Origin: Prevotella sp. | GTDB lineage: Bacteria > Bacteroidota > Bacteroidia > Bacteroidales > Bacteroidaceae | Reading direction: 5' to 3' | NCBI GenBank assembly: GCA_017619375.1 | Contig: JAFZSL010000067.1 | Location: 1-64,000, forward strand | Length of the DNA: 64,000 nt | Shown here: in pieces, positions 23,287-41,690 of the stretch | Position numbering within the stretch: position 1 is the first letter of the stretch | Layout of the letters: each line of letters starts with the position of its first letter | Notes under the pieces: model-generated | What the model was told of the DNA's origin: nothing | Seen by the model: only the letters and a program-made list of their open reading frames with translations | Database searches by the model: none | Made by a program: the position numbers and the translations under genes

Positions 23287-25569
23287 ATGACAAACAAGAA
23301 CTCACTAAGGACAATGCTCTGCATCTTGCTTGCAAGCATCCTTGCCATGTCGTGCCACGACATCGCCGACGACGACCATTACAAGTCGCCCGACTGGCTG
23401 AAAGGCAACGCGTGGGAAGTGCTGGAAAGCGAGGGCAACCACTCGATGTTCCTCAAGGCCATTGAGTTGTCGGGCTACAAGCCCATTGTCAACGGACAGA
23501 GTGTGATGACTGTGATGGCGCCCGACGATGGCGCCTGGCAGAGTTTCCTCCAGCGCAGGGGCTACTCATCCGTGGAAGACATGCAAGCCAAGGCGCCACA
23601 AGAACTGAGAAAGACCGTGGGCTACCATCTGATGTACTATGCCTACGACTGGCAGAAGATGGTCAACTTCCGTCCCACCGAGGGTGATGGCGCCACCGAG
23701 GAACAGAAGCAGGTGAACGCCGGCCTCTATTACAAGCACCGCACCCGCAGTGCCGACGACATGGAGCAGGTGCGTGGCAGGCTCAATGGTGTCGACACCA
23801 CCGTCACCGTCTATCATTTTGAGCGCTACCTACCCGTGCTCAGCCACATGATGTTCGCCACCAAGGGTATCGATGCCAAGAGCAACTACGAGTATTTCTT
23901 CCCCGGCAGCGAATGGGGCGGCGGCACACGCGGCTTCAACGTATCGAATGCCAGCGTGCTCGACGAAGATGCCGTGGTGACCGACAACGGCTATCTCTAC
24001 CATGTCAACCAGGTGGTCTCGCCGTTGGAAACCATCCATGCCACGTTGAAGGACAATCCCAACTACAGCGACTTCATCAGTCTTTACGACACCTACGCCG
24101 AGTTGACGCCCGCCTCTGAGGACATCAACACCTCCGTGGGCAAGGTGGTGTATACCATCAGCCATGGTGCACTGCCCGACATCGCCTGCGAGTGGCCGGT
24201 GAGCAGTTGGAGTGCCATGGAACAACTTGACCGCGTGGCCTACAACATCTTCGCACCGTCCAACCAAGCCATCAGCCGCTTCTTCACCAATTATTGGAAG
24301 CCAGAGAGCGGCTACCGCTCCTTGGCCGACCTCGACCCCCTCATCCTGCAATATTTCATCATGCAGTCATTCGCCGACGAGACGACACCCGTCTTCCCCG
24401 AGGAGATAGAGAAAGGGTTGGTGCAGACCGCCTATGGCACCCCCGTCAACATCAATCCCGCCAATGTGGACGACCGCCTCTTCTGTGAGAACGGCATCGT
24501 CTATGGCATGAACGACATGGAGGCTCCCGCCATCTTCTCCTCCGTCGTGGGACCCGCCTTCCGCGACACCACCTACCAATGCTTCATGTATGCCTTGGAC
24601 AAGAGCGAACTCGTCCTCTCGCTGGCATCCGACAAGTCGCAATTCGTCACCCTCGTGCCATCCAACTACCAGTTCAACCACAACGAGCCGCAGATGCGCC
24701 TGAACACAACCACGGCGGGACGTTTCCTCGAGGTGTACAGCGATGTCGATGGCAATTTCGCCAACATGGGTTCCGGGCAGGCGCGCAGCATCGTCAACAT
24801 GCACACCGCCTCCAACCTCTCCGAACTGCGCACCACCGGTGTGCAGGTGGTGGAGACCAACACCGCCTTCAACTACTGGTATGTGGTGGACGGGCGCATC
24901 ACCACCAGCGCCTTGTTCAATGAGCAACTCAACCCGTCATACCAAGGAAATCCCTTCGTGGGATTCCACGAGGTGTCCAACAACGGGATGCCATGGAGCA
25001 ACGGACGAGCCTATGCCTACGACTACGACAAACTCTTCGCCGAGGCATCCGGCGACGGACTGACCCACCGCCTCGCCGTGGGCAACGACCGCAACTACGA
25101 ATACTACCTCTTCGCACAACTGCTGCAGAAGGCCGGTCTCGTGCAGAACGGAGGCCTCCCCTCCATCACCAGCGACGACACCCGATACATCGTCTTCGTC
25201 CCCACCAACGAGGCCATCAAGAACAGCATCGCCAGCATACCGGGATGTGGCTCATTGCAAGTTGCAGACGACTACACTCTCAGCGGAACTCTCTCTACGA
25301 CCAACAAGACCCTGCTGGCCAACTACCTGCGCAACTATTTCGTTTCCTCCTTGATGAACACCATCACCAGTTATCCCTATCCCGGGTCGGCCTGCAAGGG
25401 CACCTTCAACACCATGGGTACGGAGAAGATGGTCATCAGCGAAAGCGCGGGACGCATCTACGCCGCCTTTGGCGACAACCAGCCGGTGGGTGTCACCGAG
25501 AAATACCATTGCCTGCCCTTCGCCTTCTCCGACGGGTGCATGCAACTCATCGACGGCATCATCCCATAA
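23287..25569 (+). CDS. Fasciclin (FAS1) repeat surface lipoprotein A
   Basis: A 760-residue lipoprotein; the lipobox is LAMSC (Cys 23), followed by HDIADDD, an acidic stretch of the kind that marks lipoproteins for export to the cell surface in this phylum. About four FAS1-like units follow, each with the H1-type motif: VMTVMAPDDGAWQSFL (about 75-90), NIFAPSNQAISRFF (about 320), FVTLVPSNYQFN (about 455) and IVFVPTNEAIKN (about 640). The H2-like YH motif is in LRKTVGYHLMYY. FAS1 domains bind other cell-surface polymers or proteins. It is the first gene of the array and ends 12 bp before SusC. Confidence 0.85.
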   Translation: MTNKNSLRTMLCILLASILAMSCHDIADDDHYKSPDWLKGNAWEVLESEGNHSMFLKAIELSGYKPIVNGQSVMTVMAPDDGAWQSFLQRRGYSSVEDMQAKAPQELRKTVGYHLMYYAYDWQKMVNFRPTEGDGATEEQKQVNAGLYYKHRTRSADDMEQVRGRLNGVDTTVTVYHFERYLPVLSHMMFATKGIDAKSNYEYFFPGSEWGGGTRGFNVSNASVLDEDAVVTDNGYLYHVNQVVSPLETIHATLKDNPNYSDFISLYDTYAELTPASEDINTSVGKVVYTISHGALPDIACEWPVSSWSAMEQLDRVAYNIFAPSNQAISRFFTNYWKPESGYRSLADLDPLILQYFIMQSFADETTPVFPEEIEKGLVQTAYGTPVNINPANVDDRLFCENGIVYGMNDMEAPAIFSSVVGPAFRDTTYQCFMYALDKSELVLSLASDKSQFVTLVPSNYQFNHNEPQMRLNTTTAGRFLEVYSDVDGNFANMGSGQARSIVNMHTASNLSELRTTGVQVVETNTAFNYWYVVDGRITTSALFNEQLNPSYQGNPFVGFHEVSNNGMPWSNGRAYAYDYDKLFAEASGDGLTHRLAVGNDRNYEYYLFAQLLQKAGLVQNGGLPSITSDDTRYIVFVPTNEAIKNSIASIPGCGSLQVADDYTLSGTLSTTNKTLLANYLRNYFVSSLMNTITSYPYPGSACKGTFNTMGTEKMVISESAGRIYAAFGDNQPVGVTEKYHCLPFAFSDGCMQLIDGIIP

Positions 25570-25581
25570 ACACTGAACGCC

Positions 25582-28500
25582 ATGAAACAGAAAAAGACAT
25601 ACATCATCCTGCTCATGCTGTTGTGCTCCATCGGCATGATGGCGCAAGAGAGAGTGCTCACGGGAAAGGTGACAGAGAAACTCGACAACGGCACACAGGA
25701 CCCCATCATCGGGGCCAACGTGTTGCTCGTCAACAATCAGAACCGATACATCAAGGGTGCCGTCACCGACATCGACGGCAACTACATGCTCCAAGTGCCG
25801 GCCGATGCGAAGAACCTCAAGGTCAGGGTCACCTACATCGGCATGAAGACCGTCACCGTCAACTACAACGGACAGACCGAACTCGATTTCACCATGCAGA
25901 GCGAGGCGATGCTCGAGGAGGTCACCGTCACCGGTACGCGAGGCGGTCGCGACGGCATGGGTATCTCCAGGTTGGAACAGACCTCCGCCGTGCAGAGGGT
26001 GGACCTCGCCTCCATTGTCGAGACAGCCCCCGTCACCTCCGTGGAGGAAGCCTTGCAGGGACAGATAGCAGGCCTCGACATCAACCTCGGTGGCGACCCG
26101 GGAGCAAGGAGCAGCATACGCATCCGCGGAACCAGTTCGCTCAGCGCATCCAACGAACCGCTCATCATCATCGACGGTGTGCCGCAGGACGTGGACATCA
26201 CCGACGACTTCAACTTCTCCACCGCCAACGAGGAGGACTTCGGAGCACTCCTCAACATCGCTCCCGCCAACATCGAGAGCATCGAGGTGCTCAAGGATGC
26301 CTCCGCCACCGCCATCTACGGCACGAAGGGCGCCAACGGCGTGCTCCTCATCAACACCAAGAGAGGCTCCATGGGAAAGACCAAGTTCTCTTTCTCTTCC
26401 AAGTTCACCGCGAAGAAGGAGCCTGAGAGCATCCCCCTTCTCAACGGCGCACAGTATGTGTCGCTCATGCAGGACGCCATCTGGAACGCCGCCAATGCCA
26501 AGGGCATCAGTAACGCCCGCAACGAGATGGACATGCTCTTCAACAACCCCGAAATCAACTACGACCCCAACTACCGCTACTACGACGAATACAACGTGGA
26601 CACCGACTGGTTGGAGGCCGTCAAGCAGGATGCCATCATCACCGACAACAACTTCTCCATGACCGGTGGTGGCGAGAAGGCCGTCTATAAACTCAACCTC
26701 GGCTACTACGACGAGCAAGGCACCACCAAGGGCACCGGCGTGCAGCGACTCTCCGCCGGCATGAAGATCACCTACAACTTCAGCGACCGGCTCCGCGTGC
26801 GCACCGACTTCTCCTTCTCCAACACCAACAAGGACGCCAACGCCCTCTCTTCAGTCAGAAGCATCGCCATGCAGAAGATGCCCAACCTCAGTCCCTACTG
26901 GATAGACGATGCCACGAAGAAGCCCACCGATGTCTATTTCTCACGCGACGAGGATTTCCAAGGCTCCTTCACCAGTTCGGGCAGTTCCAGTGTGGGCAGC
27001 GCCAACTACAACCCTGTGGCAATGGTCAATGAAGGCTACAACAAAACCACCCAGCGTGATGAGAAGATGACCATCACGCTGCAGTACGACTTCCCCTTCA
27101 ACCTGCAATACCAGGGGTGGGTGTCGCTCAACATGCGCACCACCAAGAACAAGCAGTTCCTCCCGCAGGAGGCCACCGGCGTGCTCTGGACCAGCAATTT
27201 CGCCAACCGGAGCGTGGACGCCTCCACCGACGCCTTCTCCCTCCAGACGGAAAACAAGCTCATCTACAACAATACTTTCGCTGAGAAGCACAAACTCATC
27301 GCCACGGCCCTCGTCAAGACCGCCGACAACGAGAGTTTCAGCTACACCAGCGGCACCTACGGCAACGCCTCCGCCAACCTCAGCGACCCCGTCGTGGGCA
27401 GCGTGGTGGCATCGTCGGGCTCTGGCAACTCCGAGAGGCGCTCCATCTCCATGATCGGACAGGCCGTCTATTCCTATGACAACCGATACATCATCCGAGG
27501 CACCATCAACCATGAGGGCAACTCCACCATGGGCAAGGAGAAGCGATGGGGCACCTTCCCCGCCTTCGGTGCTTCCTGGAACATCGAGCAAGAGCATTTC
27601 TGGAGCGACAGTTTCAAGAAATGGTTCAACGAAGGCAAGGTGCGTTTCGGCTACGGATGGTCGGGCACTTCCCCCTCTGGAGCCTCCATCTACCTCGGCG
27701 CCTACAAGAGCCTTGGGCAGTACATGGACATGGCCGCCATCACACCCGACCGCATGCAACTCGACAACCTCAAGTGGGAGACCACAAGGGAGATGGACCT
27801 CGGCATCGACCTGAGGCTCTTCAACCGTTTCTCCTTCACTTTCGACTACTACGACAAGCAGACCTCCGACATGTTGCTCAAGGACACCAAGTTGCCGGCA
27901 TCCACAGGTTACAATTCCGTGAAATACATCAACTCCGGCAAGATGAGCAACAAGGGAGTGGAGTTGAGGTTTGAATACCAAGTGCTAAGGAACAAGGTCT
28001 GGACCATCTCCGTCAATGCCAATGTCAGCCGCAATATCAACAAGGTGAAGGAGTTGCCCAGCACGTGGGTGATGGACAACTACTCCTTCGGCAACGGCAA
28101 CTATGCCCTCCGCATCGTGGAGAACGCCCCCGTCGGTTCCTTCTACGGATACCGCTACCTCGGCGTCTATCAGAACACGGCCGAGACCTTCGCCCGTGAC
28201 GCATCAGGCAACGTGATGTACGACTGGCAGGGCAACATCATCACCATGAAGAACGGGACGGTGCAGACCTACCCAGGAGACGCCAAGTATGAGGACATCA
28301 ACCACGACGGCGTCATCAATGAGAACGACATCGTCTATCTGGGCAACGCCAATCCCAAGTTCTTCGGCGGTGGCGGCTTCCAGATAAGATGGAAGGACCT
28401 CACCCTCACCACCTTCTTCTATGGACGCTACGGACAGAAGGTCATCAACGGCGCCCGCATCTCGCTGGAGAACATGTATGGCAAGAACAACCAAAGCACC

Positions 28501-28845
28501 GCCGTGCTGCACAGATGGCGCGCCGAAGGTGACCAGACCGACATTCCCCGTGCGCTCTATGGCATGGGCTACAACTACCTTGGCAGCGACCGCTTCGTGG
28601 AGAACGCCTCGTTCATCCGACTGAAGACCCTCTCGCTGAGTTACAACTTCCCCAAGAAATGGTTGAAAAATTGGGGAGTGAGCAAACTCAACGTCTTCGC
28701 CACCGCCTACGACCTCTTCACATGGACCAAGTACAAGGGGCAGGACCCGGAGGTCTCCATGCCTTCGGCCACCAGCCTCGTCAGAGACAACGCCACCACG
28801 CCTGTCTCACGACGTTTCTCCATCGGTGTCAACCTCGACTTTTAA
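25582..28845 (+). CDS. SusC/RagA-type TonB-linked outer-membrane transporter 1
   Basis: A 1087-residue protein with a signal peptide (about 1-22), a carboxypeptidase-regulatory-like domain (about 26-110, VTDIDGNYMLQVPADAKNLK), a TonB-box-like segment (LEEVTVTG), the plug (about 125-255 with IRIRGTSSLSASNEPLIIID) and a 22-strand-type barrel ending VNLDF. Length and order are those of SusC transporters, which form a pedal-bin complex with the SusD lipoprotein encoded immediately behind (11 bp). The imported ligand is unknown. It has no N-terminal STN domain, so it is not expected to signal to an anti-sigma factor. Confidence 0.95.
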   Translation: MKQKKTYIILLMLLCSIGMMAQERVLTGKVTEKLDNGTQDPIIGANVLLVNNQNRYIKGAVTDIDGNYMLQVPADAKNLKVRVTYIGMKTVTVNYNGQTELDFTMQSEAMLEEVTVTGTRGGRDGMGISRLEQTSAVQRVDLASIVETAPVTSVEEALQGQIAGLDINLGGDPGARSSIRIRGTSSLSASNEPLIIIDGVPQDVDITDDFNFSTANEEDFGALLNIAPANIESIEVLKDASATAIYGTKGANGVLLINTKRGSMGKTKFSFSSKFTAKKEPESIPLLNGAQYVSLMQDAIWNAANAKGISNARNEMDMLFNNPEINYDPNYRYYDEYNVDTDWLEAVKQDAIITDNNFSMTGGGEKAVYKLNLGYYDEQGTTKGTGVQRLSAGMKITYNFSDRLRVRTDFSFSNTNKDANALSSVRSIAMQKMPNLSPYWIDDATKKPTDVYFSRDEDFQGSFTSSGSSSVGSANYNPVAMVNEGYNKTTQRDEKMTITLQYDFPFNLQYQGWVSLNMRTTKNKQFLPQEATGVLWTSNFANRSVDASTDAFSLQTENKLIYNNTFAEKHKLIATALVKTADNESFSYTSGTYGNASANLSDPVVGSVVASSGSGNSERRSISMIGQAVYSYDNRYIIRGTINHEGNSTMGKEKRWGTFPAFGASWNIEQEHFWSDSFKKWFNEGKVRFGYGWSGTSPSGASIYLGAYKSLGQYMDMAAITPDRMQLDNLKWETTREMDLGIDLRLFNRFSFTFDYYDKQTSDMLLKDTKLPASTGYNSVKYINSGKMSNKGVELRFEYQVLRNKVWTISVNANVSRNINKVKELPSTWVMDNYSFGNGNYALRIVENAPVGSFYGYRYLGVYQNTAETFARDASGNVMYDWQGNIITMKNGTVQTYPGDAKYEDINHDGVINENDIVYLGNANPKFFGGGGFQIRWKDLTLTTFFYGRYGQKVINGARISLENMYGKNNQSTAVLHRWRAEGDQTDIPRALYGMGYNYLGSDRFVENASFIRLKTLSLSYNFPKKWLKNWGVSKLNVFATAYDLFTWTKYKGQDPEVSMPSATSLVRDNATTPVSRRFSIGVNLDF

Positions 28846-28856: not shown

Positions 28857-30437
28857 ATGAAGAAGAACCTATTATACATGCTGATGTGCGGAGCACTCAC
28901 GCTCGCCACAGCCACCTCCTGCAACGACTGGCTTGACGTGCTGCCCAACAACGAGCAGGTGACCGACGACTACTGGAAGTCGAAGGAGGATGTCGAGGCG
29001 GTCATCGCCTCAGGATACTACTATATGAGACAGTGCGTGCCCACCTTCATCAAATGGGGTGAACTGCGTGGAGGGTCCTTGTACACCACCGCCACCGGCG
29101 ATGCCAAGTTGCAGGATTTCAACATGACGGCCAACCATTCGCTTTGCGACTGGTCGAATGTCTACAAGGTCATCGGAATGGCCAACTCCGTCATCCTCTA
29201 CGCACCTGGCGTGAAGGACGATACCTACTATGAGGCCATTCTCAACTCACACCTCTCCGAGGCCTATTTCCAAAGGGCATACTGCTATTTGCTCCTCGCC
29301 AAGAACTACAGGGAGGTGCCGCTCGTCATGCAGGCATACGTCAATGACAATGCCAGTTTCGACCTCGCCAAGTCCACCGAGACGCAAATCATCGCCCAGG
29401 TCAAGGAGGATGTCAGGACCGCCCTCGCCACCGATGCCGCCAAAGGAACCTTCGAGGAGGACTGGGCCACCAAGGGAAGGGCTACCAAATGGGCGCTCTA
29501 CGCCCTCATGGCCGACGCCTGCCTCTGGAGCGAGGATTACGACCAGTGCATCGAATACTGCGACAAGGTGCTGAATGCCAAGGACGCCTTCCGTCCCGTC
29601 TTCATGACCAACACCAACGACTGGTACACCATGTTCTATCCCGGCAACAGCAACGAGTCGATTTTCGAACTCAACTGGGATTACTCGGAAAACCAAACCA
29701 ACAATTTCAACTCCTTGTTCACCTTGACGGCATCCTCGCCCTTGAGACCCACCACGAGGGCCACGGAGCGGATGAAGGAGGAGACGCAGGTGCTCAAGGA
29801 CGAGGGGCTCACCGAGGACGGGCGCATGGGACGCATGCTGATGTCAACTTACGTGCCCGACAACGGACAAGCCATAGGATGGGCCTCCTCCAACCAATAT
29901 TACATCTGGAAATACTACGGCACCGACGTGCCTGACATCACCGGCGGGGCGCGCGCCCATCAGGATGCAAACTTCATCATCTACCGCGTGGCAGACCTCA
30001 TGCTGATGAAAGCCCTCGCGCTCACCATGAAAGGACAGGGAGGTTGGGCAGAGGCTGTCAGTCTCGTCAACAAGGTGCGCAACCGTGCCGCTTTGCCCAA
30101 TTTCAAGGACATCGACACCACGTCGCCTGATGCCGCGGCTCAAATCTCCCAACTCGACGAGATGACGCTCATCGAGGAGATTCTCGACCAGCGCGAGATG
30201 GAGTTCATGGCAGAGGCCAAGCGGTGGTATGACCTGCTCTGGCTCGGAAGAGTGGGAGGAGGGAAATACAAGACACAGTTCATCAACAAGGTGGTGGAAG
30301 GCAACCAGACCACCAACCAGCAGTGGATACGCTCGGTGCTCCAGGATGAGAACGCCTGGTACATGCCCATCCCGCAAGCCGACATCGAGCACAACAAACT
30401 GTTGGAGCAAAATCCATATTATTCATCATCCAAGTAA
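28857..30437 (+). CDS. SusD/RagB-type surface lipoprotein 1
   Basis: A 526-residue lipoprotein; the start is the ATG at 28857 because the lipobox ATATSC (Cys 22) follows directly, whereas longer in-frame versions run back into susC. After the Cys comes NDWLDVLPNNEQVTDDYWKS, the classic SusD opening. Four TPR-like helical pairs form the SusC-binding side (for example HLSEAYFQRAYCYLLLAKNY), and the C-terminus has the usual MEFMAEAKRWYDLLWLGRVG. It forms the lid over the SusC barrel and gives first contact with the ligand. Confidence 0.95.
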   Translation: MKKNLLYMLMCGALTLATATSCNDWLDVLPNNEQVTDDYWKSKEDVEAVIASGYYYMRQCVPTFIKWGELRGGSLYTTATGDAKLQDFNMTANHSLCDWSNVYKVIGMANSVILYAPGVKDDTYYEAILNSHLSEAYFQRAYCYLLLAKNYREVPLVMQAYVNDNASFDLAKSTETQIIAQVKEDVRTALATDAAKGTFEEDWATKGRATKWALYALMADACLWSEDYDQCIEYCDKVLNAKDAFRPVFMTNTNDWYTMFYPGNSNESIFELNWDYSENQTNNFNSLFTLTASSPLRPTTRATERMKEETQVLKDEGLTEDGRMGRMLMSTYVPDNGQAIGWASSNQYYIWKYYGTDVPDITGGARAHQDANFIIYRVADLMLMKALALTMKGQGGWAEAVSLVNKVRNRAALPNFKDIDTTSPDAAAQISQLDEMTLIEEILDQREMEFMAEAKRWYDLLWLGRVGGGKYKTQFINKVVEGNQTTNQQWIRSVLQDENAWYMPIPQADIEHNKLLEQNPYYSSSK

Positions 30438-30452: not shown

Positions 30453-32165
30453 ATGGACACAACCAGAAAAATCATACGCAACATCGTCTGTCTCGCAGCA
30501 GCGGCTTTTTTCTTCGCCGCCTGCGACAAGGATGTGTTCGACATCAATACCGACCCGTTCAAGAACGAGGTCTACAGCACCACGCTCATGTCGCCCATCT
30601 CCTCCTTCCTTGAAGAACAAGAGGGATATGGCGAATATGTGAAGATGCTACGCTACGCCAATATGTTCAACGCGCTTAACCAGTCGTCATCAGGAACCAG
30701 TTTCACCGCTTTCGTTCCCAACGACGACGCCATGCGCGAGTTCTACCGCCGCAGGGGGGTGGACAGCCTCGAGCAACTCTCCAAGGAATATGCCAAGGCC
30801 TTCGTCCTCTACCACACCGTCAAGGACTCCATCCTTCCCGAATCCTTCGTGCAGAAGAAGTCGGTGCAGAACCTCAGCGGCGATGTCATCAACATCACCA
30901 TCGACCCGCAGCACGCCGGACAGGCCATCCTCAACAACGAAGGCTGTGTGGTGGAGATGGGACTCAGCGCCTACAACGGCAAGGTGTATGTCCTCTCTTC
31001 GGCCATGACACCCCTGGTGGAGACCGTCTACGACAGGGTGGTGCAGGGTGGACGCTCCCGCATCATGGCCGAGGCGTTGCAAGCCACGGGATGGGCAGGC
31101 AAACTCAGCATCGTGGTGGATACCACCATCAATGAGGAAAGGCAGAAAGTCATCAACCATTACTATTACACCCTGCTCAACGTCTCCGACGCCACATTCG
31201 CCAAGGCAGGCGTCGCTTCGCTCGACCAACTCAGGCAAGTGTTGCGCAGCACCGACAAGGAAGGGTTGGCTGAGGACTCCCTGCTCCGCAAATACGTGGG
31301 CTATCACATTCTTCAGAACCAATACACCACCGACGAGATGGGAGCCATGGTGGGGTCGGAACCTACCCGCATTTGGAGTTCGTCGGCCAGCAACCAGGTG
31401 TTCACCGTCACCTACGACAGCCTCGCCACGAGTGAAGCCGACAAGTTCGTGCTCAACGGCTCCGGCGTGTCAGCCAGGTTCGTCCCGGAGGAGTCGAACG
31501 TGTTGTGCAAGAATGGCTACGTGCACGAACTCGATGGTTGGCTGCCCGTATGGGAGCCGGAGCAGGCCACCGTGCTGTGGGACCTGGCCGACTATACCGA
31601 AATCAAGAATCTTGTCGATCCCGAGTATTACCAGCCAGCCGAGCCGACGGCCTCCGAGCAGCGCTTCCGTGTGGCCTCCGCCGCCTGTTTCGAATATGAG
31701 ATGGGCGAGGCTGGCTCGAAGAACCGCAACTACAGCGACATCGACTATGTCACCTGCCGCAGCAATATGAAGGATGCCCACAACTACGACCGCATCGTCT
31801 TCAACCTAGGCTACATGGGCAAGGTGAGCATGCGCACCCCCACCATCGTCAGGGGAAAGTACAAGGTGGAACTCACCCTCGTCTTCATGACAGGCAACAA
31901 CTTCATGCGCCAGCAGACCGACGGTAATGGTGGAATGCTGAAGATGGCCTTTGATGAAAAGGACGAATACACCGTCTTCACCGCACCCTATACGAAGGTC
32001 ACCAGCGCACTCCCCGGCGTGTATACCAGTACCATCTACGAGGAGATTGAGTTTCCTGAAACCGCCTCTCACGATTTCAGTTTCATCGTACTCGACCCGG
32101 CGGCCAGCACCAACAGCAATTTCAGCCTTCAGTTCGACTACATCAAGTTCACACCCATCGAATAA
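30453..32165 (+). CDS. Fasciclin (FAS1) surface lipoprotein B
   Basis: A 570-residue lipoprotein, Cys 24 (FFFAAC) followed by DKDVFD. Two FAS1 domains: about 50-195 (H1 motif FTAFVPNDDAMREFYRRRGV, then FVLYHTVKDSIL) and about 200-345 (GVASLDQLRQVL, LRKYVGYHILQNQ). Residues about 400-570 are a separate beta-sandwich-like domain ending FDYIKFTPIE, as in many surface glycan-binding lipoproteins. It sits in the place of SusE/SusF in ordinary polysaccharide loci, so a ligand-binding role on the surface is the best guess. Confidence 0.8.
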   Translation: MDTTRKIIRNIVCLAAAAFFFAACDKDVFDINTDPFKNEVYSTTLMSPISSFLEEQEGYGEYVKMLRYANMFNALNQSSSGTSFTAFVPNDDAMREFYRRRGVDSLEQLSKEYAKAFVLYHTVKDSILPESFVQKKSVQNLSGDVINITIDPQHAGQAILNNEGCVVEMGLSAYNGKVYVLSSAMTPLVETVYDRVVQGGRSRIMAEALQATGWAGKLSIVVDTTINEERQKVINHYYYTLLNVSDATFAKAGVASLDQLRQVLRSTDKEGLAEDSLLRKYVGYHILQNQYTTDEMGAMVGSEPTRIWSSSASNQVFTVTYDSLATSEADKFVLNGSGVSARFVPEESNVLCKNGYVHELDGWLPVWEPEQATVLWDLADYTEIKNLVDPEYYQPAEPTASEQRFRVASAACFEYEMGEAGSKNRNYSDIDYVTCRSNMKDAHNYDRIVFNLGYMGKVSMRTPTIVRGKYKVELTLVFMTGNNFMRQQTDGNGGMLKMAFDEKDEYTVFTAPYTKVTSALPGVYTSTIYEEIEFPETASHDFSFIVLDPAASTNSNFSLQFDYIKFTPIE

Positions 32166-32182: not shown

Positions 32183-33889
32183 ATGAGGACCATCTATAAA
32201 ACAACCATTTTCCTGCTCACCCTGTTCGTGGCGGCATCCTGCTCCGAACTGGAAGATGACGACCACTACGGCAACTCTGACACGGTCATCTCCAACAATG
32301 AGTTGAAGATTGTCAACACTTCTTCCGAGGAATACATCAAGGACAGGGCCGACCTCTCCAGCATGAGCCAACTGTTTCAGAGTCAGGGCATCTATGAGGA
32401 ACTGGCCAGGAAGGGCCAACTCAGCACCATGCTCGTGGTGACCAACGACCATTTCAAGGCCCCTGAGGAGAAGACGGAGTTTGTCACCAGGTCGCACGTG
32501 AGCGACATCTCCATCTCCCCCGCCAATCTGGAGGACGGCACCCGCCTCATGATGTGGCATGGGAAATATGTCAATGTCGTCATCGACTCCCTCGGACGGC
32601 AAGGCAACATCGTCGACCACATCCTCTTCAACAATGGCGCGGTGAAAGAAGTGGTGAAGACCACCACAGGCTACGTCTATGTCATCTCCGACATGATACA
32701 GACTCCCACCTCGCTCTATGACTTCATCAACGACCTCGACGACGAATACTCCATCTTCCGCGAGATGGTGCTCGCCTCGGGAGGAAAGGAGTTCGACAGG
32801 GCCAACAGCAAGGCCATCGGCATCAACGACCAAGGCAACACCGTCTATGACTCCGTCTTCATCTATCGAAACACGTTCTTCGAGAACGTCAACTTCGATA
32901 TGAACTCCGAGTCGCTCACCGCCACCATGCTCCTTCCCTCCAACGATGTCATCAATGCCGCTCTCGACGATGCCCACCAGCGACTTGCCGCATGGGAGAT
33001 GGAGCGGCCCGACAGCCTGATGAAGGACTGGATACTCAAAACGGCCTTCTTTGCCAAGAGATATGCGCCAGAGCAGATGCAGACCACGGAACAGCAAGAC
33101 CTCAAGAGTATTTTCAGCACACAATGGCGCACCAACGTGCAGCAGGTGGACACCTCCGAACCCATCGAACTCTCCAACGGCATTGTGTACAAGGTAAAGA
33201 AGATTCACCTGCCCAACAATCTGTTGATGTATCGCCTGAAGGACTATTTCTATTATTACGAGAACTGTACCGACGAGCAGAAGGCGAATTATTTCAAGGC
33301 GGTGAACCTCAATTTCAAGGAGTGCAACACCGAGGTGGCGGCATGGTCGCCGCTCCCTGGCGTATGGCCATTGCACGAGAACCGCATCATCCGCTTTGAC
33401 AAACCCTCCGACATCGCCGATGCCGACGGGTTCCAACTTGACTTCACGCCCATCAAACTCAATGCCGACGGCACGGTGAAGCCCTACCTCTTCCCGCCGG
33501 GTGCCTACCGCTTCGCCATGGGGTCCGTGCAGAACCAGGGCCTTGACATCGTCGTCACCGTCTTCGCCGAAGGACAGGAAATCGCCAAGTCGAGAGCCAT
33601 CACTTGGGGCACCACCACCGAATTCCACTACGACCGTGGCACCACACTCTCCAACACCCACCCCGAGGGTTATGACGCCACTTATGTGAGAGAGGTGGGA
33701 GGCAACAGCAAGGCCGCCAACTACGATACCGACGGAGGACAGATGATGGAGGAACTCGTCATCCCCGACGTCAAGGGCGACGGTTCTCCCGTGAGAATCA
33801 CCATGCGGCTCACTTGCGGTAGTTGGGAGGGGAAGACCAATGTGAAAATCCACCATTGGTGCCTGCGCCCCACCGCCAACAATTATTAA
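32183..33889 (+). CDS. Fasciclin-like surface lipoprotein C
   Basis: A 568-residue lipoprotein, lipobox VAASC (Cys 20), then SELEDDD. The N-terminal half is FAS1-like but divergent: STMLVVTNDHFKAPEE replaces the H1 motif (about 75-90), and a second weaker unit has LTATMLLPSNDVINAALDD (about 245). Residues about 390-568 form a beta-rich C-terminal domain (PPGAYRFAMGSVQNQGLDIV, ending HHWCLRP). It matches lipoprotein B in overall layout, so the two probably arose by duplication and divergence. It ends 22 bp before the second susC. Confidence 0.7.
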   Translation: MRTIYKTTIFLLTLFVAASCSELEDDDHYGNSDTVISNNELKIVNTSSEEYIKDRADLSSMSQLFQSQGIYEELARKGQLSTMLVVTNDHFKAPEEKTEFVTRSHVSDISISPANLEDGTRLMMWHGKYVNVVIDSLGRQGNIVDHILFNNGAVKEVVKTTTGYVYVISDMIQTPTSLYDFINDLDDEYSIFREMVLASGGKEFDRANSKAIGINDQGNTVYDSVFIYRNTFFENVNFDMNSESLTATMLLPSNDVINAALDDAHQRLAAWEMERPDSLMKDWILKTAFFAKRYAPEQMQTTEQQDLKSIFSTQWRTNVQQVDTSEPIELSNGIVYKVKKIHLPNNLLMYRLKDYFYYYENCTDEQKANYFKAVNLNFKECNTEVAAWSPLPGVWPLHENRIIRFDKPSDIADADGFQLDFTPIKLNADGTVKPYLFPPGAYRFAMGSVQNQGLDIVVTVFAEGQEIAKSRAITWGTTTEFHYDRGTTLSNTHPEGYDATYVREVGGNSKAANYDTDGGQMMEELVIPDVKGDGSPVRITMRLTCGSWEGKTNVKIHHWCLRPTANNY

Positions 33890-33911: not shown

Positions 33912-36900
33912 ATGAGCAATAACATGAAGAAACTGATGATATGCCTCGCCATGGCCATGGCATGGGTCTGGGGAGCGCAAGCGCAGACCATCAACGGACA
34001 TGTGTTCACCTCCACCAGCGAACCAGTGGTGGACGCCATCGTCACCAGTCCAGGATGCACAGCCGCAAGGACGGCGGCCGATGGCGGTTTCACCATTAAA
34101 GGGGTGGGGAAGGGCAATCCTCTCACCGTCTGGCACGATGGCTATTACCAGCGAACAGTCTATGTCAACGACCTGCAGGGGGATGACCTGAGCATCTTCC
34201 TTGTCGAGGAGGACAAGACCCGTTACAATGAAACCGTCATCACACCGTTCACCGTAAGTGGCGGTTCCGCCGCCACTACAAGCATGGCCAACATCAACCG
34301 CAAGGACTTCGCCTTGGGAGCCCTCTCCATCGACAACGCCCTCAAAGGCGAGGTGACGGGCCTGCAGGTGACCAACAAGAGCGGCATGACAGGAGAGGGA
34401 GCCTTCCTCCAACTCAGGGGCGTGCGCTCCCTCGTGGCGGAGAACACGCCGCTCATTGTCATCAACGGCGTGCCTTACATGCCCGACGCCAACCTCAGTC
34501 AAATCATCGGGGGCTACTCCAGGTCGCTCTTCCAGTCGCTCAACAGCCTTGACATCCGTAACATCACGGTGCTCAAGGGTGCGGAGGCTGCCGCCTATGG
34601 CTCTATGGGCTCCAACGGCGTAATCATGATTGAGACCGACCAGGCAAGCAGCACCGATATGAACACGCGCATCTCTTTCTCGGCCATTGCCGGCATGAAC
34701 TGGAACTCCAAGCGCGTACCCCTGATGAACGCATCTGAGTACAAGAACTACCTCAGCGACATCGGACTGACCTATTATCCCAACATGGAGGCCTTCTTCA
34801 CCGATTTCAACTTCCTCAGCGACCCCGATGCCAACAAGTCGTACCTCTATCAGTATGACACCGATTGGCAGGACGAAATCTACCGCAACAGCACCACCAT
34901 GGACTACCTCTTCCGCGTGGAGGGTGGTGACAACATCGCCAAGTACAACATCTCCCTCGGCTATCTGGGAGACCAAGGCACGCTGAAGAACACCAATAGC
35001 GACCGCTACAACGCACAAATCAACGCCTCCGTACTCGTCAGCAAGAATTTCGAGATTCGCGCCAACATCAACACCGCCTATCTCAAGGGACAATATCAGG
35101 AACAGGGCATGTCCTTGGAGACCAATCCCATGCTCGCCGCCTACCGCCGAGCACCACTGCTCAGCCCCTACAAGAGCGACATGTATGGAAATCTCATCAA
35201 CACCTACGCCAGTTATTGGTTCGGAGCCATCAACAACGAGGACTTCATCGTCAGCAATCCGCTTTCCCTCGTCAACACCATGACGGGCAAGAACAGGCAG
35301 TATGACATGAACCTAAAGATACAATTCATCTACAACCCCGTGAAGAACCTCACCCTCAACGGCATCGTGGGGATGTACTACAACTACAACCAGGAGGAAG
35401 CCTTCATCCCCGGCATCAACAACGAGGACGTCGTGCCACTCTTTGACCAATATGGACAGGCCGACAACACCATCAGGGTGGGTACCAACCATACGTTCAA
35501 CATGTACTACAACGTCAATGCCGCCTACCGGCTGAACATCGGCGAGCAGCATAAGTTCAACCTCAACGCCGGATGGCAGGCCGTCACCACCTCCTATGAG
35601 TACGACGCCGGATTCGGACGCAACTCCAACAACGACTTCTACCAGACCTTGGGCGATGCTCAGTCTTTAGGACGCTATTTCTCCGGCTACAACAACAAGT
35701 GGAACTGGATGAATGTCTACGCCCATGCTGACTGGACCTTCAACAACCTGGTGAAGGTGGGCGTGACCGGTGCATTCGACGGCGCATCGTCCATCGGAAA
35801 GGATGCCACGAGGATGACCTTCTATCCCGCCGCCGACGTGGTGTTCATGGCCAAGAACCTGCCTGCCCTCAGCACCAAGGACTGGGTGGACAAACTCAAC
35901 CTCTATGCCAACTACACCATCACCGGCAACAGCAGGTTCTCCTCCAAATACGGAAAATACTACTACACCTCCAACCCCTACCAGACCATCTCGGGCATCG
36001 TCAGGGCCAACGTCCCCAACACCGCCATCAAGGCTGAGAAGGACCAGACCATGAACGTCGGCCTCGAGGCTGCGTTATGGCACAACAGGGTGCAACTCGG
36101 CATCGGCTACTACAACACCAAGGCCACCGACGTGCTCATCTCCGGCGACCGTTCGCCCATCCTCGGTTCCAGCCTCTATTACAACAACGAGGCCGAACTG
36201 TCGTCAAAGGGTTTGGAACTCTCCCTCGCTATCTCGCCCATCTACACCAAGGACTTCAGATGGACCATCGGCGGGACGATGACCACCCTTGACAACGAGG
36301 TCAACTCTTTGGGTACGCTCAACGAGATGGTCACCACGCTCAGCGACGGCGCACAGGTCATCACAAGGGTGGGGGAGAACCCCTACGCCTTCTACGGACT
36401 CAAGTCGCTCGGTGTCTTCAAGACCACCGCAGAGGCAGAGGCTGCCAACCTCACCGCCAATGGAATGCCGTTCCAGGCAGGAGACGTCCACTACTACGAT
36501 GCCAACCACGACGGCATCATCGACAGCGACGACAGGGTGGTCATCGGCTCTGCTACTCCCGACCTCTTCGGCTCGCTCTTCACACGTTTCGAATACAAGA
36601 GTTTCGCACTCGACCTCACCTTCACCTATTCCTTCGGCAATGATGCATACAATGCCGTCAGGCGCGTCACAGAGTCGGAGAGCGACTTCTCCAACCAGGC
36701 CAAGTCGGTCAACCGCAGATGGCTCATGGAGGGTCAGGACACCGACATGCCAAGGGTGAGATACAATGACCGTGTGGGCAACAACGCCTTCAGCGACAGG
36801 TGGATAGAGGATGCCGGATATGTCAAGTTGCGCGATGTCACCTTCAGTTACACTTGGAACAAACCCCTTTGGAACTTCATCCAAGGCGGAACGGCCTTCG

Positions 36901-37049
36901 TCACGGGGCAGAACCTGCTCTGCTTCACCGATTACCTCGGTCTCGACCCGGAGTTTTCCTACTCCTACAGTTCGCTCATGCAGGGCACGGACTATGCCAA
37001 GGCCACCGCGCCCAGGGCGATAAAGTTTGGTGTCAATCTCAGATTCTAA
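33912..37049 (+). CDS. SusC/RagA-type TonB-linked outer-membrane transporter 2
   Basis: A 1045-residue protein with signal peptide (about 1-25), a short, divergent carboxypeptidase-regulatory-like domain (about 27-100, INGHVFTSTSEPVVDAIVTS), a plug (about 130-250, LQLRGVRSLVAENTPLIVIN) and a barrel ending FGVNLRF. It lacks the VVVGYG phrase at the plug boundary and is more diverged than transporter 1. It precedes the second SusD gene by 57 bp. The two SusCs are far from identical, so the locus probably handles two related ligands or two parts of one. Confidence 0.92.
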   Translation: MSNNMKKLMICLAMAMAWVWGAQAQTINGHVFTSTSEPVVDAIVTSPGCTAARTAADGGFTIKGVGKGNPLTVWHDGYYQRTVYVNDLQGDDLSIFLVEEDKTRYNETVITPFTVSGGSAATTSMANINRKDFALGALSIDNALKGEVTGLQVTNKSGMTGEGAFLQLRGVRSLVAENTPLIVINGVPYMPDANLSQIIGGYSRSLFQSLNSLDIRNITVLKGAEAAAYGSMGSNGVIMIETDQASSTDMNTRISFSAIAGMNWNSKRVPLMNASEYKNYLSDIGLTYYPNMEAFFTDFNFLSDPDANKSYLYQYDTDWQDEIYRNSTTMDYLFRVEGGDNIAKYNISLGYLGDQGTLKNTNSDRYNAQINASVLVSKNFEIRANINTAYLKGQYQEQGMSLETNPMLAAYRRAPLLSPYKSDMYGNLINTYASYWFGAINNEDFIVSNPLSLVNTMTGKNRQYDMNLKIQFIYNPVKNLTLNGIVGMYYNYNQEEAFIPGINNEDVVPLFDQYGQADNTIRVGTNHTFNMYYNVNAAYRLNIGEQHKFNLNAGWQAVTTSYEYDAGFGRNSNNDFYQTLGDAQSLGRYFSGYNNKWNWMNVYAHADWTFNNLVKVGVTGAFDGASSIGKDATRMTFYPAADVVFMAKNLPALSTKDWVDKLNLYANYTITGNSRFSSKYGKYYYTSNPYQTISGIVRANVPNTAIKAEKDQTMNVGLEAALWHNRVQLGIGYYNTKATDVLISGDRSPILGSSLYYNNEAELSSKGLELSLAISPIYTKDFRWTIGGTMTTLDNEVNSLGTLNEMVTTLSDGAQVITRVGENPYAFYGLKSLGVFKTTAEAEAANLTANGMPFQAGDVHYYDANHDGIIDSDDRVVIGSATPDLFGSLFTRFEYKSFALDLTFTYSFGNDAYNAVRRVTESESDFSNQAKSVNRRWLMEGQDTDMPRVRYNDRVGNNAFSDRWIEDAGYVKLRDVTFSYTWNKPLWNFIQGGTAFVTGQNLLCFTDYLGLDPEFSYSYSSLMQGTDYAKATAPRAIKFGVNLRF

Positions 37050-37106: not shown

Positions 37107-38852
37107 ATGAAAAAAATGAAACAATTCATAGGCTTCGTCTTCATCCTTGGAGGACTCGCCACGCTCACCGCTTGCTCTGACTTCTGGGACCCGGAGACAG
37201 AGGATGAGTTCAACGGGGAGGATGGCTTCACCAGTAACACCGAGATGTACACCGGTTTCCTGGGCATCATGACCAAGATGCAGGCCATCGGCGACAAGGA
37301 AATCCTGCTCACAGAGACACGAGGCGAACTCATCGAGCCTACCGATGACTCGAGCAACGAACTCATCGCCCTCAATAATTACGAGCCTAACCTCCAGAAC
37401 AATGCCTATGCCAATCCGCAGGGGTACTACGAGGTCATCATCGCCTGCAACGACTACCTTTCCAACATGAGGGACTACAGGAAGAGGCCCAATGTGAACG
37501 AGGAGGCATGGGAGGCTCTCGTGGCTTCCGCCCTCCGCGTGAAGGTGTGGACTTACAAGACGCTGGCTGAAATCTACGGCAAGGCGGTGTGGTTTGACGA
37601 CCCCATCACCGAGGTGACCGAAATCAAGGAAGGCGACCGCTTCCATCTCCTCACACTCGAACCCTTGGTGGACAAATGCCTTGCGGTGATGGACCAGGGT
37701 TTCGAGGGCGTGGACTCTCAAAAAGACATCGACTGGTATGAATGGCTCGACCCCACCCACAGCGTCAGCCTTTCCAGCAGCCAGTATCGCAAGTGGAACT
37801 ATATGACGCCGCCTTACGCCGGACTCTATGCCGAACTCTGCCTGTGGAAGGGTGCCTTGCAAGATGCTGCCAACCAGGATGCCACCGCCGCTTACAAGAA
37901 GGCCGCCGACATCCTGCTCGCTGCTCTCGGAACACAAATCAACGTCACTTCCGACCCCGGTTCCAATGTCTATTGGCTTCCTTCCGGCGCCACCCCTGGA
38001 CATTACTCGCCCATTTGGAACAACAGTCAGCCTTATCCCTACGAGGCGGTGGCTGCCATCATCTACGACTATTCCAACAACCAGACCAACACCTTGCTCC
38101 AGCATTTCTCCAACGAGTATCCCAACAAATACCTGTTGAGACCGTCGGAAAATGGAAAGGCGAGGTTCACCGACACGACATTCAACCCTGGAGCCACCAC
38201 CTCCGACACCCGCTACAAATGTATGTTTGGCAACTCCTCCGGCCAGGACTATATCGCCAAGTACAGGCCCGTGGGTAGTACGGCTCGTGTCAATGCATAC
38301 CAGGACGACTGCCACATCTACATCTACCGCGCCACGCAATATCACATGATGCTTTGCGAGGCACTCAACCACCTCAAGCGCTTCATCGCACTGAACGCCG
38401 TTTTCAATTCGGGTGTGAAGGCTGGCGATGCAGACAACTGCTTCCATACCGGCATGGCGGAATGGGAGGGGTTCGCCAGTACCATAGACCCCACCAAGTG
38501 TGACTGGACGGGCACCGCCAACTGGGGAACCCGCAAATATCCGTCGCTCGGCATCAGGGGGTGCTTCACCGGACTCGTGCCGCGCACTATCAAGGACAAC
38601 ACACACGAACTCGGTGAGGTGGGCACATTCAAGTTCAACGACCTCCAACTCCTCGACGAGGCCATGCTGGAGTTCGCCGCCGAGGGCAAGGTGTATCCCA
38701 TGATGAACCGCATGGCGGTGAGATACAATGATGCCTCCATCGTGGCCGACAGGGTGTGTGGGAAATACCAGAACCCATCGCTGGCTGCCACCGTCAGGTC
38801 CAGGATCATGGAAGGAGCCTACTGGGTGCCTTTCGATTTGCAATTCAAGTAA
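37107..38852 (+). CDS. SusD/RagB-type surface lipoprotein 2
   Basis: A 581-residue lipoprotein, lipobox TLTAC (Cys 23), followed by SDFWDPETEDEFNGED, strongly acidic as expected for surface export. Typical SusD elements are ALRVKVWTYKTLAEIYGKAV (TPR region) and the terminal MEGAYWVPF. It is longer than SusD 1, mainly in the middle, where an insertion with YWLPSGATPGHYSPIW is seen. Partner of transporter 2. Confidence 0.9.
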   Translation: MKKMKQFIGFVFILGGLATLTACSDFWDPETEDEFNGEDGFTSNTEMYTGFLGIMTKMQAIGDKEILLTETRGELIEPTDDSSNELIALNNYEPNLQNNAYANPQGYYEVIIACNDYLSNMRDYRKRPNVNEEAWEALVASALRVKVWTYKTLAEIYGKAVWFDDPITEVTEIKEGDRFHLLTLEPLVDKCLAVMDQGFEGVDSQKDIDWYEWLDPTHSVSLSSSQYRKWNYMTPPYAGLYAELCLWKGALQDAANQDATAAYKKAADILLAALGTQINVTSDPGSNVYWLPSGATPGHYSPIWNNSQPYPYEAVAAIIYDYSNNQTNTLLQHFSNEYPNKYLLRPSENGKARFTDTTFNPGATTSDTRYKCMFGNSSGQDYIAKYRPVGSTARVNAYQDDCHIYIYRATQYHMMLCEALNHLKRFIALNAVFNSGVKAGDADNCFHTGMAEWEGFASTIDPTKCDWTGTANWGTRKYPSLGIRGCFTGLVPRTIKDNTHELGEVGTFKFNDLQLLDEAMLEFAAEGKVYPMMNRMAVRYNDASIVADRVCGKYQNPSLAATVRSRIMEGAYWVPFDLQFK

Positions 38853-38880
38853 GGGGGGAGGGTAGGTGGTCCCAGGTAGT

Positions 38881-38940: not shown

Positions 38941-38975
38941 CTTATGATTATTCATCAACCTTTAATATTTTGATT

Positions 38976-41690
38976 ATGAGAAAAATTTTTACGCTAACCT
39001 TGCTGCTTGCGCTTGGCTTGAGTGCAAGCGCACAAGAGACTTACAGGAAGTCATGGGATTTCACCAAATGGAGTTCCAGAACTGTAGAGAACCTGAAAGC
39101 CGAGTCGGCCAAGGGTCCATCCACGGGTGCCTGGTCTGATGTGGAGAAGAAAGATGCCACAGAACCCACCGCAGCCTCCAAGGACAACTGCTTCTGGGAG
39201 GTGACCCACCAGGGAACGGCCGAGGGTGCCACCCTCCAGGCCAATGGCGAGCCGATCGCTGAGTTGGAAGGACTCCTCTACACCAACACCACCGACCGTT
39301 CGTTGGCCATCGCCGTGAACTACCCCGGCCCCGACCCCTCCAGCAGTTTCGGCCCCTATGCAGGAGCCTCCTACCTCTGGTTGGGCGGTTCTAAGAAGAA
39401 CTACTTCGTCATCCCCCACGTGGCTCCCGGAACCATCATCAAGATGGGTGTGGAGTCGCACAAGGTGACCGATGCCCGTGGTGTGAACCTCTATCTCGGT
39501 TTCGGCACTTCCGGCACACAGTTGAAGGACCCGGAGGGCAACAGCGTTGCTGCACCAGTAGCCTATACCGACCAGGAATGGATGGTGCCCACCGATGCTC
39601 CCGACACGCCCAATGACGATGGCACCTACAACATCCAGATCTATAACACCAATGGCTGCCACATCTATTACATCACCGTGGGCGATGGTGACGAACCGCC
39701 TGTGACCAATGCGAAGAAGATAGGCTACCTTTCTGCCAATCTGCATCACAGCGACGCGGCAGACTATGCATTTGCGTTCATCAGCGGCGACAGCCGTTTC
39801 GACGTCACTGAAATCGATGTGACCGTTACACAGCCCACCATGGCAGAGTTGCAGGAATACGACGCCATCGTCATTAGTCCCACCATCGGGGCCGACAACC
39901 CCTACTTGCCCGTCATCAAGCAGGCCATCGCCTTTGTGCCCATGCTCAACCTCAATCCCAACATCTATGAGGCATTGGGTTATGGCAAGGCAGTGAAGAC
40001 CGACGCCACCATGCTCACCGTCACCGATGCCAACAATGCGACGTTTGAGAACTTCGACGTGGCGGCAGGCATCGAATACCTCACCTCCGGCGGCATCACC
40101 GGTGTGGAACTGGGCGACTATTTCGCCAATGACGCCATCCTCGCCAAGGCCGGCGACGTGGTGGCCATGCACATGCACAACAAGACGCGCAACGCCTACA
40201 TGCTCCTCCCAATGCCTCTCGACGACATGCCGCTGATGGCTGAGGACGCACTTGTCAACCTGCCCTCGCAGGCGCTCGCCGTGGTGGCTGACACCAAGAA
40301 CACCGTGATTGCCGTGAGCAAGCCCAACATCCAGCAGAAGTATGAGGACGGACAGACCGTGGTCTCCATCACCGCCGCCAACTCCACTGCCATCTACTAC
40401 ACCACCGATGGTACCGAGCCCACCACTGCCAGCACACGTTATGTCGAACCGTTCGCTGTCACGCAGGCGTGCACCGTCAAGGCCTTCGGCGTGGGCGACG
40501 GATACCTTGATAGCGAGGTGGCCGAGGCTGCCGTAACTATCATGGCCAAGGCTGCTGCTCCTGCCATCGCCGTGGCACGCGAGGCAGGCAAGTCCTCTGT
40601 CTCCTTCACCTGCCCCACAGAGGGTGCAACTGTTTACTATAGTTTCCGCAACACCACCACGGTCACCGAGGCCAAGGCTTATGATGAGCCTGTGGAAATC
40701 ACCGAACCCACCACCATCTATGCCTTCGCCGCCAGCGACAACTTCCTCACCTCCGAGGTGACGAGCCAGTTCGTGGGAGTCGATGGTGTCGATGCCTCCA
40801 CCATCCGCTGGGATGTGCTGGCTCACTTCGACGCCAACGCCGACGACTGGAAGGGCAAAGGCCAGCAGACCAACGAGGCTGGTGAGATCATCAACGCCAA
40901 CTACCTCTTCACATGGGGAAAGAACGCGGGTGAATACTATGACTATGAGTCCATCAAGGAGGTCGTGACCGGTTCCGAGGGACAGGACTCCATCATCTAC
41001 AACCCACGTCAGCCAGAGACCCTCGTGGGTGGCGACTGGGTGGCCAAGTCCATCGGCCAGGTGATGGTATGGGAGAGTCTCAACCTGGGTTACAACATCG
41101 GTGACACCTCCATGCGCAATCCCGACGCCGTGGAGGACATGGTGGGTGTGAACGACGAGCAGGGCATCACAGTCAATGCCATGACCTTCGGCAAGCAGCC
41201 GAGCGACGGTCCGTTCAACGCCAGCCTGGAGACCGTCTCGAAGCAGCAGGCGCCGTTTGATGTCATCGTCTATGCCGGCAACGGCAACGAGGGACAGATT
41301 CCCACGATGCAGATCGAGGTGTCCGCCGACGGCGAGACATGGACGAAGTTGGGCGACATCAACTACTCCCTCATCAAGCGCAACTGGAAGCGCACGAAGG
41401 TGAGTTACGAGGGCACCGATGAAGTGTATGTCCGCGTGCTCCACACCGCCGCGAAGTCAAGCGGCCAGATTTACGACATCTACGTGATGAACAACGGCGA
41501 GAAGTCGAGCCAGTACTCCGAGGCCGCCCTCGACGGTATCGAGACCCTCCTCCCCGCCGGCGACATCGTCCGCACCGAGATCTACACGCTCAACGGCGCA
41601 CGTGTCACCACGATGGTCAAGGGTGTGAACATCATCCGTCGCACCTACGCCAACGGCGTGGTGAAGACCCACAAGGTTATTGTCAGATAA
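38976..41690 (+). CDS. Large secreted multi-domain protein with chitobiase-type repeats and sorting-like tail
   Basis: 904 residues from the ATG at 38976 (a TTG 6 bp upstream is less likely). Signal peptide about 1-20 (LGLSASAQ). Residues about 22-210 form a beta-sandwich opening SWDFTKWSS. Residues about 240-440 include IGYLSANLHHSDAADYAFAF, an alpha/beta segment I do not recognise. Two chitobiase C-terminal-like (CHB_HEX_C) repeats follow: AIYYTTDGTEPTTASTRYV (about 472) and the weaker VYYSFRNTTTVTEAKAYDEP (about 550). The last 35 residues (IYTLNGARV…KGVNIIRRTYANG…HKVIVR) look like a type IX secretion tail. It has no catalytic motif that I can identify. Last gene of the array. Confidence 0.75.
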   Translation: MRKIFTLTLLLALGLSASAQETYRKSWDFTKWSSRTVENLKAESAKGPSTGAWSDVEKKDATEPTAASKDNCFWEVTHQGTAEGATLQANGEPIAELEGLLYTNTTDRSLAIAVNYPGPDPSSSFGPYAGASYLWLGGSKKNYFVIPHVAPGTIIKMGVESHKVTDARGVNLYLGFGTSGTQLKDPEGNSVAAPVAYTDQEWMVPTDAPDTPNDDGTYNIQIYNTNGCHIYYITVGDGDEPPVTNAKKIGYLSANLHHSDAADYAFAFISGDSRFDVTEIDVTVTQPTMAELQEYDAIVISPTIGADNPYLPVIKQAIAFVPMLNLNPNIYEALGYGKAVKTDATMLTVTDANNATFENFDVAAGIEYLTSGGITGVELGDYFANDAILAKAGDVVAMHMHNKTRNAYMLLPMPLDDMPLMAEDALVNLPSQALAVVADTKNTVIAVSKPNIQQKYEDGQTVVSITAANSTAIYYTTDGTEPTTASTRYVEPFAVTQACTVKAFGVGDGYLDSEVAEAAVTIMAKAAAPAIAVAREAGKSSVSFTCPTEGATVYYSFRNTTTVTEAKAYDEPVEITEPTTIYAFAASDNFLTSEVTSQFVGVDGVDASTIRWDVLAHFDANADDWKGKGQQTNEAGEIINANYLFTWGKNAGEYYDYESIKEVVTGSEGQDSIIYNPRQPETLVGGDWVAKSIGQVMVWESLNLGYNIGDTSMRNPDAVEDMVGVNDEQGITVNAMTFGKQPSDGPFNASLETVSKQQAPFDVIVYAGNGNEGQIPTMQIEVSADGETWTKLGDINYSLIKRNWKRTKVSYEGTDEVYVRVLHTAAKSSGQIYDIYVMNNGEKSSQYSEAALDGIETLLPAGDIVRTEIYTLNGARVTTMVKGVNIIRRTYANGVVKTHKVIVR

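Follow-up and report, generated by a model that had tools for sequence, protein, structure and literature searches.

A FAS1-SusCD array on a Prevotella contig

The window analysed here is a 64,000-nucleotide stretch of contig C7 (JAFZSL010000067.1) from the genome (4.26 Mb in 78 contigs) of an uncultured Prevotella sp. that probably lived in a rumen. At positions 23287–41690, 23 kb and 37 kb from the contig ends, it carries eight plus-strand genes with reading frames all intact, which we named F1, C1, D1, F2, F3, C2, D2 and X in 5' to 3' order: three lipoproteins with FAS1 (fasciclin) domains, two SusC-SusD (SusCD) pairs and a secreted protein. We read this array, with a probability of roughly three in four, as the outer-membrane transport-and-binding arm of a pectin utilisation system of the rhamnogalacturonan I (RG-I) type, the lyase of which now lies elsewhere in the genome.

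23167..23174, plus strand: Bacteroidetes-type -7 box, TATCTTTG, about 113 bp 5' of F1 (pattern scan)
23287..25569, plus strand: F1, lipoprotein, 760 aa, several FAS1 units; Pfam Fasciclin
25582..28845, plus strand: C1, SusC/RagA TonB-dependent transporter, 1087 aa; Pfam Plug and CarbopepD_reg_2
28857..30437, plus strand: D1, SusD lipoprotein, 526 aa; Pfam SusD_RagB and SusD-like_3
30453..32165, plus strand: F2, lipoprotein, 570 aa; Pfam Fasciclin (two) and DUF5108
32183..33889, plus strand: F3, lipoprotein, 568 aa; Pfam Fasciclin
33912..37049, plus strand: C2, second SusC/RagA transporter, 1045 aa, distinct from C1; Pfam Plug
37107..38852, plus strand: D2, second, divergent SusD lipoprotein, 581 aa; Pfam match weak
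38976..41690, plus strand: X, secreted protein, 904 aa, two CHB_HEX_C_1/Fn3_assoc repeats
41719..41745, plus strand: likely terminator at the end of the unit, a hairpin followed by a T run (terminator scan; stem with T run at 41719–41736)

The co-directional layout, gaps of 11–123 bp, lipoboxes and SusC/SusD signatures described in the original prediction were confirmed by Pfam, NCBIfam and the reading frames. From F1 to X the intergenic gaps are 12, 11, 15, 17, 22, 57 and 123 bp, assuming ATG starts at 28857 for D1 and 38976 for X, and lipobox-like cysteines stand near the N-termini of F1, D1, F2, F3 and D2. Against the NCBIfam SusC/RagA model (cut-off 368 bits) C1 scored 764 and C2 573 bits; for D2, Pfam gave SusD-like_3 alone, at 23.1 bits and thus under the 27-bit cut-off. 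F1 has four FAS1 profile matches, two of them possibly fragments of one domain, and a stretch at about 420–600 without domain assignment. In X, a Pfam match to F5/8 type C was weak and below cut-off, while residues 247–430, approximately, may resemble a ThuA/glutamine-amidotransferase-like domain.

Also borne out was the view of the array as one import unit with no recognised enzyme or regulator inside: Pfam and NCBIfam found no catalytic or regulator families in the eight proteins, and no regulator (hybrid two-component system, HTCS; SusR; ECF/anti-sigma) was seen in the 16 flanking genes scanned, a scan reaching upstream to 18036. X as a hidden lyase was rejected at the profile level, with no lyase in Pfam, NCBIfam or PDB. 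The STN domain is absent from the Pfam list for both C1 and C2; SusC proteins without STN go with HTCS rather than ECF control, and such control would fit here.

FAS1 lipoproteins occupy the place of SusE/SusF, as had been proposed, and the predicted models of F2 and F3 add a C-terminal beta-sandwich of the CBM35/CBM6 (carbohydrate-binding module, CBM) type. In F2 two FAS1 domains (45–189 and 190–366) precede a sandwich at 371–570 that overlaps DUF5108; in F3 two FAS1 domains precede one at about 349–568. The resemblance is at fold level only, at which unrelated sandwiches score alike; conserved aromatics and aspartates were listed with a possible uronic-acid binding site in view. PDB sequence matches of F1, F2 and F3 were FAS1 proteins alone, marginal rows aside. 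A check for hidden domains, on which the original prediction had staked itself, therefore came out half against it, with CBM-like folds in two models and no catalytic domain found.

The window holds 34 matches to the TATCTTTG pattern, where 19 would be expected; for the box before F1, then, the location counts as evidence and not the match itself; only one other plus-strand copy falls inside the array, at 38222 within D2. Similarly, the terminator scan as a whole was at chance level (18 found, shuffle mean 16.1). Downstream of the unit lie an amidase_2 gene with its own TATCTTTG at 41852 and a glycoside hydrolase (GH) family 5 gene at 42560–43714, about 870 bp past the array end. This pair (41696–43714) was considered and rejected as part of the unit, given the likely terminator at 41719 and the fresh promoter box at 41852. 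Farther downstream, outside the unit, are a GH77 gene and a C1 peptidase gene, and upstream on the opposite strand are efflux genes and a patatin-Omp85 protein. Two patatin-Omp85 fusions, at 20571–22904 (minus strand) and 44030–46270 (plus strand), bracket the array together with its two downstream genes.

The seven-gene module in this genome and in relatives

A FAS1 search of the genome itself gave 12 matches at five places. Four more arrays, on contigs C16, C53, C33 and C52, have the identical seven-gene order F1-C1-D1-F2-F3-C2-D2, and since the same order recurs at four other sites the arrangement in the window is more than chance. Each module gene matches its positional counterpart better than genes at other positions: across all pairs of the five arrays identities are 33–64% for C1 and 28–60% for C2, as against 24–28% between C1 and C2. 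BLAST among these arrays found every pair for six of the genes and 16 of 20 F3-F3 pairs. The window array is the outlier, with a C1 only 33–36% identical to the other four and a D2 matching theirs at 27–33% over 29–43% of its length. A SusD_RagB search counted 27 SusD loci in the genome, nine of them inside the five arrays; the profile missed the window D2. Beside the C16 array are GH2, polysaccharide lyase (PL) family 11 and GH43 genes and a SusD gene preceded by a SusC-like gene; an HTCS follows the C33 array; and the C53 array has an esterase upstream and GH98 as the second gene past D2.

To see how far the linkage extends, we used two sets of loci. Around FAS1 frames of at least 500 aa in same-genus and same-order genomes, 33 of 40 hand-picked loci carried the full seven genes in order. 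Three of the exceptions are cut or split (L050, L051, L068), one has a second F2 (L071), one is reshuffled (L033), one has F1 shifted to the end (L036) and one is a lone F2 (L056). Scanning named genome contigs by D1 alignment confirmed 461 loci, and among the best 80 of these the full order was present in 59. Together this makes 92 complete and ordered loci out of 120, or 90 of 118 distinct ones once doubled loci are dropped, and the FAS1-SusCD linkage on which the original prediction depended is thus conserved. Median gaps in relatives' modules are 14–25 nt. About two thirds of the incomplete loci seem cut by a contig end or have a split reading frame, and a few lose or move a gene.

Several variants stand apart. 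F1 is at the 3' rather than the 5' end in arrays L036 and L107; L056 (G200:C1:11600-31500) is a lone F2-like gene with no SusC or SusD alongside in the stretch fetched; and L201 (G371:C6:200000-216000) has, at 5050–16001, a FAS1 array of another order (F3-like, F2-like, F1-like, SusC, SusD). Genome G158 of the genus sample has 20 FAS1 matches, the most among the genomes listed, suggesting still more arrays.

Distances in the trees of the seven genes agree closely (21 pairs, r 0.80–0.95 over 98 sets), whereas the permutation control (200 per pair) never exceeded 0.10. The doubled loci L049/L093 and L063/L129 remain in the trees and in the neighbour tallies below, and the r range is unchanged in the 96 sets without duplicates. 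As far as the gene trees tell, the seven-gene set is inherited as one unit; tree agreement alone does not imply a joint function.

The closest among the D1 matches listed are Prevotella and Prevotellaceae assemblies (D1 77–87%), including RUG-named records that we take to be rumen uncultured genomes. Next among them come Proteiniphilum, Paludibacter, Bacteroides finegoldii, Mangrovibacterium and B. nordii, and farther off Prolixibacteraceae, Flavobacterium, Pedobacter, Niastella, Salegentibacter, Algibacter and others. A full-length F2 was present in at least six of 295 other genomes of the phylum sample, a lower bound with up to four candidates scored per genome, and this count makes F2 scattered rather than universal. 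Twelve of 100 relatives carry DUF5108.

Genes beside the arrays of relatives

As a description of the whole class, the enzyme- and regulator-free system of the original prediction was not supported, since many relatives have an HTCS or pectin enzymes beside the array. The upstream tally covers 73 of 78 nearest genes on either strand (one short gene and four belonging to modules were set aside), among which we counted histidine-kinase domains (13), two-component propellers of the HTCS type (12), GH95 catalytic domains (4), pectate lyase (3), PL11 (1) and GH88 (1). Downstream, 70 of 95 genes were retained (21 on the opposite strand and four module genes left out) and two from this genome added; these 72 include FG-GAP repeats (11), GDSL esterases (5), two-component propellers (5), rhamnogalacturonan lyases of PL11 (4) and GH88 (1).

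For a sample chosen without regard to PL11 we took 8 kb either side of ten arrays picked by FAS1 alone and, as controls, ten stretches of the same contigs lying 45 kb or more from the arrays. The ten come from twenty, one candidate having been replaced since no control would fit on its contig. The 78 flank genes include Pect-lyase_RHGA (4), GH28 (3), PL11 (2) and L-rhamnose isomerase (2), where the Pect-lyase_RHGA and GH28 counts may share proteins. None of these families is among the 25 shown for the 99 control genes, in which a family with a single gene could be hidden. FAS1-array genes were left out of both sets (five of 104 control genes, in region L201, and four of 82 flank genes), and a separate set of 20 regions, partly chosen for a nearby PL11, was not counted as a sample.

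The B. finegoldii array is surrounded by a pectate lyase, a GH88+SASA gene, two GH28 genes and a DUF4450 gene; PL11 and GH106 lie farther out, at about 16 and 27 kb. A PL11 gene starts 416 bp from the array in B. nordii and 890 bp from it in Flavobacterium alvei. In the PL11 distance set, compiled from hand-entered positions, the count of 5/9 is not a rate, because its four named genomes were those with PL11 near. Among 15 genomes reached via named loci, PL11 was within 25 kb of the array in four, absent in three and elsewhere or unplaced in eight.

A likely lyase on another contig

Beyond a close same-genus array (G009:C4; D1 85% and X 75% identical to those of the window), the opposite strand encodes a pectate-lyase-like protein of 1166 aa and a second X, 53% identical to the window X. 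Both have counterparts in the window genome, the lyase at C54:98225-101695 (73% identical) and the second X within 4 kb of it (74% identical).

L176 (G000:C54), 10220-13711 and 17345-19900: pectate-lyase-like protein with beta-strand repeats, and second X

The pectate-lyase-like protein has no Pfam lyase family; among solved structures a pectate lyase is matched at 6.8e-28, and in NCBIfam the PelZ model at 2.5e-33, under the model cut-off. As the counterpart sits on a different contig, this genome has its array separated from the likely lyase. For the same reason, one part of the ligand originally proposed, that it arrives already processed, fits; the other part, a peptide or host matrix component, found no support, given the pectin and rhamnose genes of relatives.

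The clade of the window array

The C1+D1+C2+D2 tree, built on 108 taxa, places the window array with L072, L073, L076 and L088. Next to join are ten arrays of the B. finegoldii genus with complete frames, L079, L054 and L077, with a support of 0.93, or 1.0 with three more; B. nordii L086 is one step outside the window clade (24 members, support 1.0), and the other four arrays of the window genome form a separate group.

Of 75 genomes in the B. finegoldii genus, 13 gave a DUF5108 match, weak in four cases; eight of these 13 supplied eleven loci with the order F1-C1-D1-F2-F3-C2-D2, ten of them unbroken. The gene after D2 is a rhamnogalacturonan lyase with a BT_4170-like C-terminal domain in L219 and L221, two arrays of the window clade (the latter matching the solved lyase 5olq at 1e-262), and PL11 in L225; no lyase was recognised at this position in L220, L223 and L228. 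L223, L224, L226 and L229 share, just after D2, a lipoprotein-like gene of 703 aa whose starts are nearly identical, and its member in L223 has no Pfam match.

Function of the array

The pectin reading has to be weighed against three others. Some other plant-wall glycan (xylan-type, arabinogalactan or beta-glucan) might be imported, perhaps with help from the downstream GH5, the relatives' link to pectin not being transferable to this copy. The nearby GH5 gene, the GH98, esterase and GH43 genes adjoining other arrays of this genome and the GH95 catalytic domains at four of 73 upstream neighbours would suit such a role, but GH5 stands behind the likely terminator and follows an amidase gene that has a promoter box to itself, the window array clusters with pectin-linked Bacteroides arrays and apart from the other four, and the close same-genus array adjoins the pectate-lyase-like gene. 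We consider this alternative unlikely.

We give far less credit to capture of a peptide or host matrix component with FAS1 serving adhesion. Full-order arrays occur in Flavobacterium, Pedobacter and Niastella, which are largely free-living; pectin and rhamnose genes are among relatives' neighbours; and F2 and F3 are predicted to end in folds like those of carbohydrate-binding modules. On its side are the lack of a glycosidase in the unit and, in passages of PMC6032426, the binding of integrins and matrix components by mammalian FAS1 proteins. Just as improbable, in our view, is that the copy is a decaying leftover, out of use since the loss of its enzymes: lyase and regulator are indeed not adjacent and the lyase counterpart is on another contig, yet all eight frames are intact and the full order is retained in L072, L073, L074, L076 and L088, with F1 identities of 64–77% in four of these loci and D1 of 77–87%.

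For the pectin-arm reading, the following mechanism can be envisaged. Lipid-anchored F2 and F3 would use their C-terminal carbohydrate-binding-like folds to hold pectic chains or the products of the lyase, their FAS1 domains acting as spacers or as surfaces for assembly; F1, likewise a surface protein with FAS1 domains, might be a scaffold. The released oligosaccharides would be imported by the two SusC-SusD pairs in a lid-and-barrel, TonB-driven manner, the presence of two different pairs suggesting two product classes. X might be a secreted accessory, in the slot where some relatives carry a surface lyase, and an HTCS whose gene lies apart from the array would probably control expression.

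The wider array family probably serves several plant glycans. More tentatively, the seven genes might form a double machine of two non-interchangeable SusCD pairs joined at the cell surface by FAS1 assembly lipoproteins; the five copies might have diversified for different complex plant glycans, with enzyme-free copies using lyase products from elsewhere in the cell or from neighbours.

Surface lipoproteins called hypothetical or DUF5108 in a pectin locus gain a fold-based identity and a probable role, and a set of two transporters and three FAS1 proteins is seen to be inherited together in bacteria ranging from Flavobacterium to Prevotella-like ones. The module may also serve as a marker for pectin-uptake genes apart from enzymes, which are missed when loci are called by their enzyme neighbourhood. 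We found no description of a FAS1-SusCD module in the literature searched, which left most subscription journals outside and included some unspecific queries. While the B. thetaiotaomicron system discussed below is known by function, what is new here is the composition of FAS1 and CBM-like domains, the fixed unit of seven genes, its presence in five copies and the enzyme-free copy.

Comparison with known systems

The nearest known system is the RG-I locus of B. thetaiotaomicron (BT4145-BT4183), in which BT4167 binds RG-I, BT4170 cuts it and BT4164/BT4165 and BT4168/BT4169 import the products (PMC8002723). BT4164-69 includes a DUF5108 protein, according to a passage of PMC10434189, and a mutant of the HTCS BT4178 is given in a passage of PMC3243724 as growing on RG-I to 58.5% of wild type. 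The window array has the same order as the transport part BT4164-BT4170 (SusC, SusD, DUF5108 protein, binding protein, SusC, SusD, next gene), F3 being the gene-order counterpart of the RG-I binding protein BT4167; the likeness follows the published gene order, in which we infer the place of DUF5108 within BT4164-69 from the passages at hand. On those passages, both are of a type with two SusCD pairs around a DUF5108 protein and a second surface lipoprotein. DUF5108 also features in an iron-stimulon list, which led us to consider iron uptake; we rejected this, BT4164-69 being, in the published passages, just one of many SusC/SusD loci with changed transcription.

Unlike the B. thetaiotaomicron locus, the window unit has no lyase, glycosidase or HTCS: directly after the second SusD gene comes X, with no lyase family or PDB match, rather than a rhamnogalacturonan lyase. 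The array is therefore likened to the BT4164-BT4170 arm in its working and not filed as a member. Of the parts of a strict polysaccharide utilisation locus it has the SusC-SusD pair; carbohydrate-active enzymes were absent from its eight genes, so that it is not filed as a complete locus, and no HTCS, SusR or ECF/anti-sigma regulator was among the 16 flanking genes. The FAS1 make-up is a feature of the window, unmentioned for BT4164-BT4170 in the published passages.

With the levan and dextran Sus-like systems or utilisomes, as described in passages of PMC7618045, the unit shares SusC-SusD and lipidated surface binding proteins encoded together; it differs from them in having two dissimilar SusCD pairs, three FAS1 lipoproteins and no surface enzyme. 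Compared with FAS1 adhesion proteins such as periostin and TGFBIp, the FAS1 proteins of the window are bacterial lipoproteins, extended by a CBM-like domain and linked to transporters.
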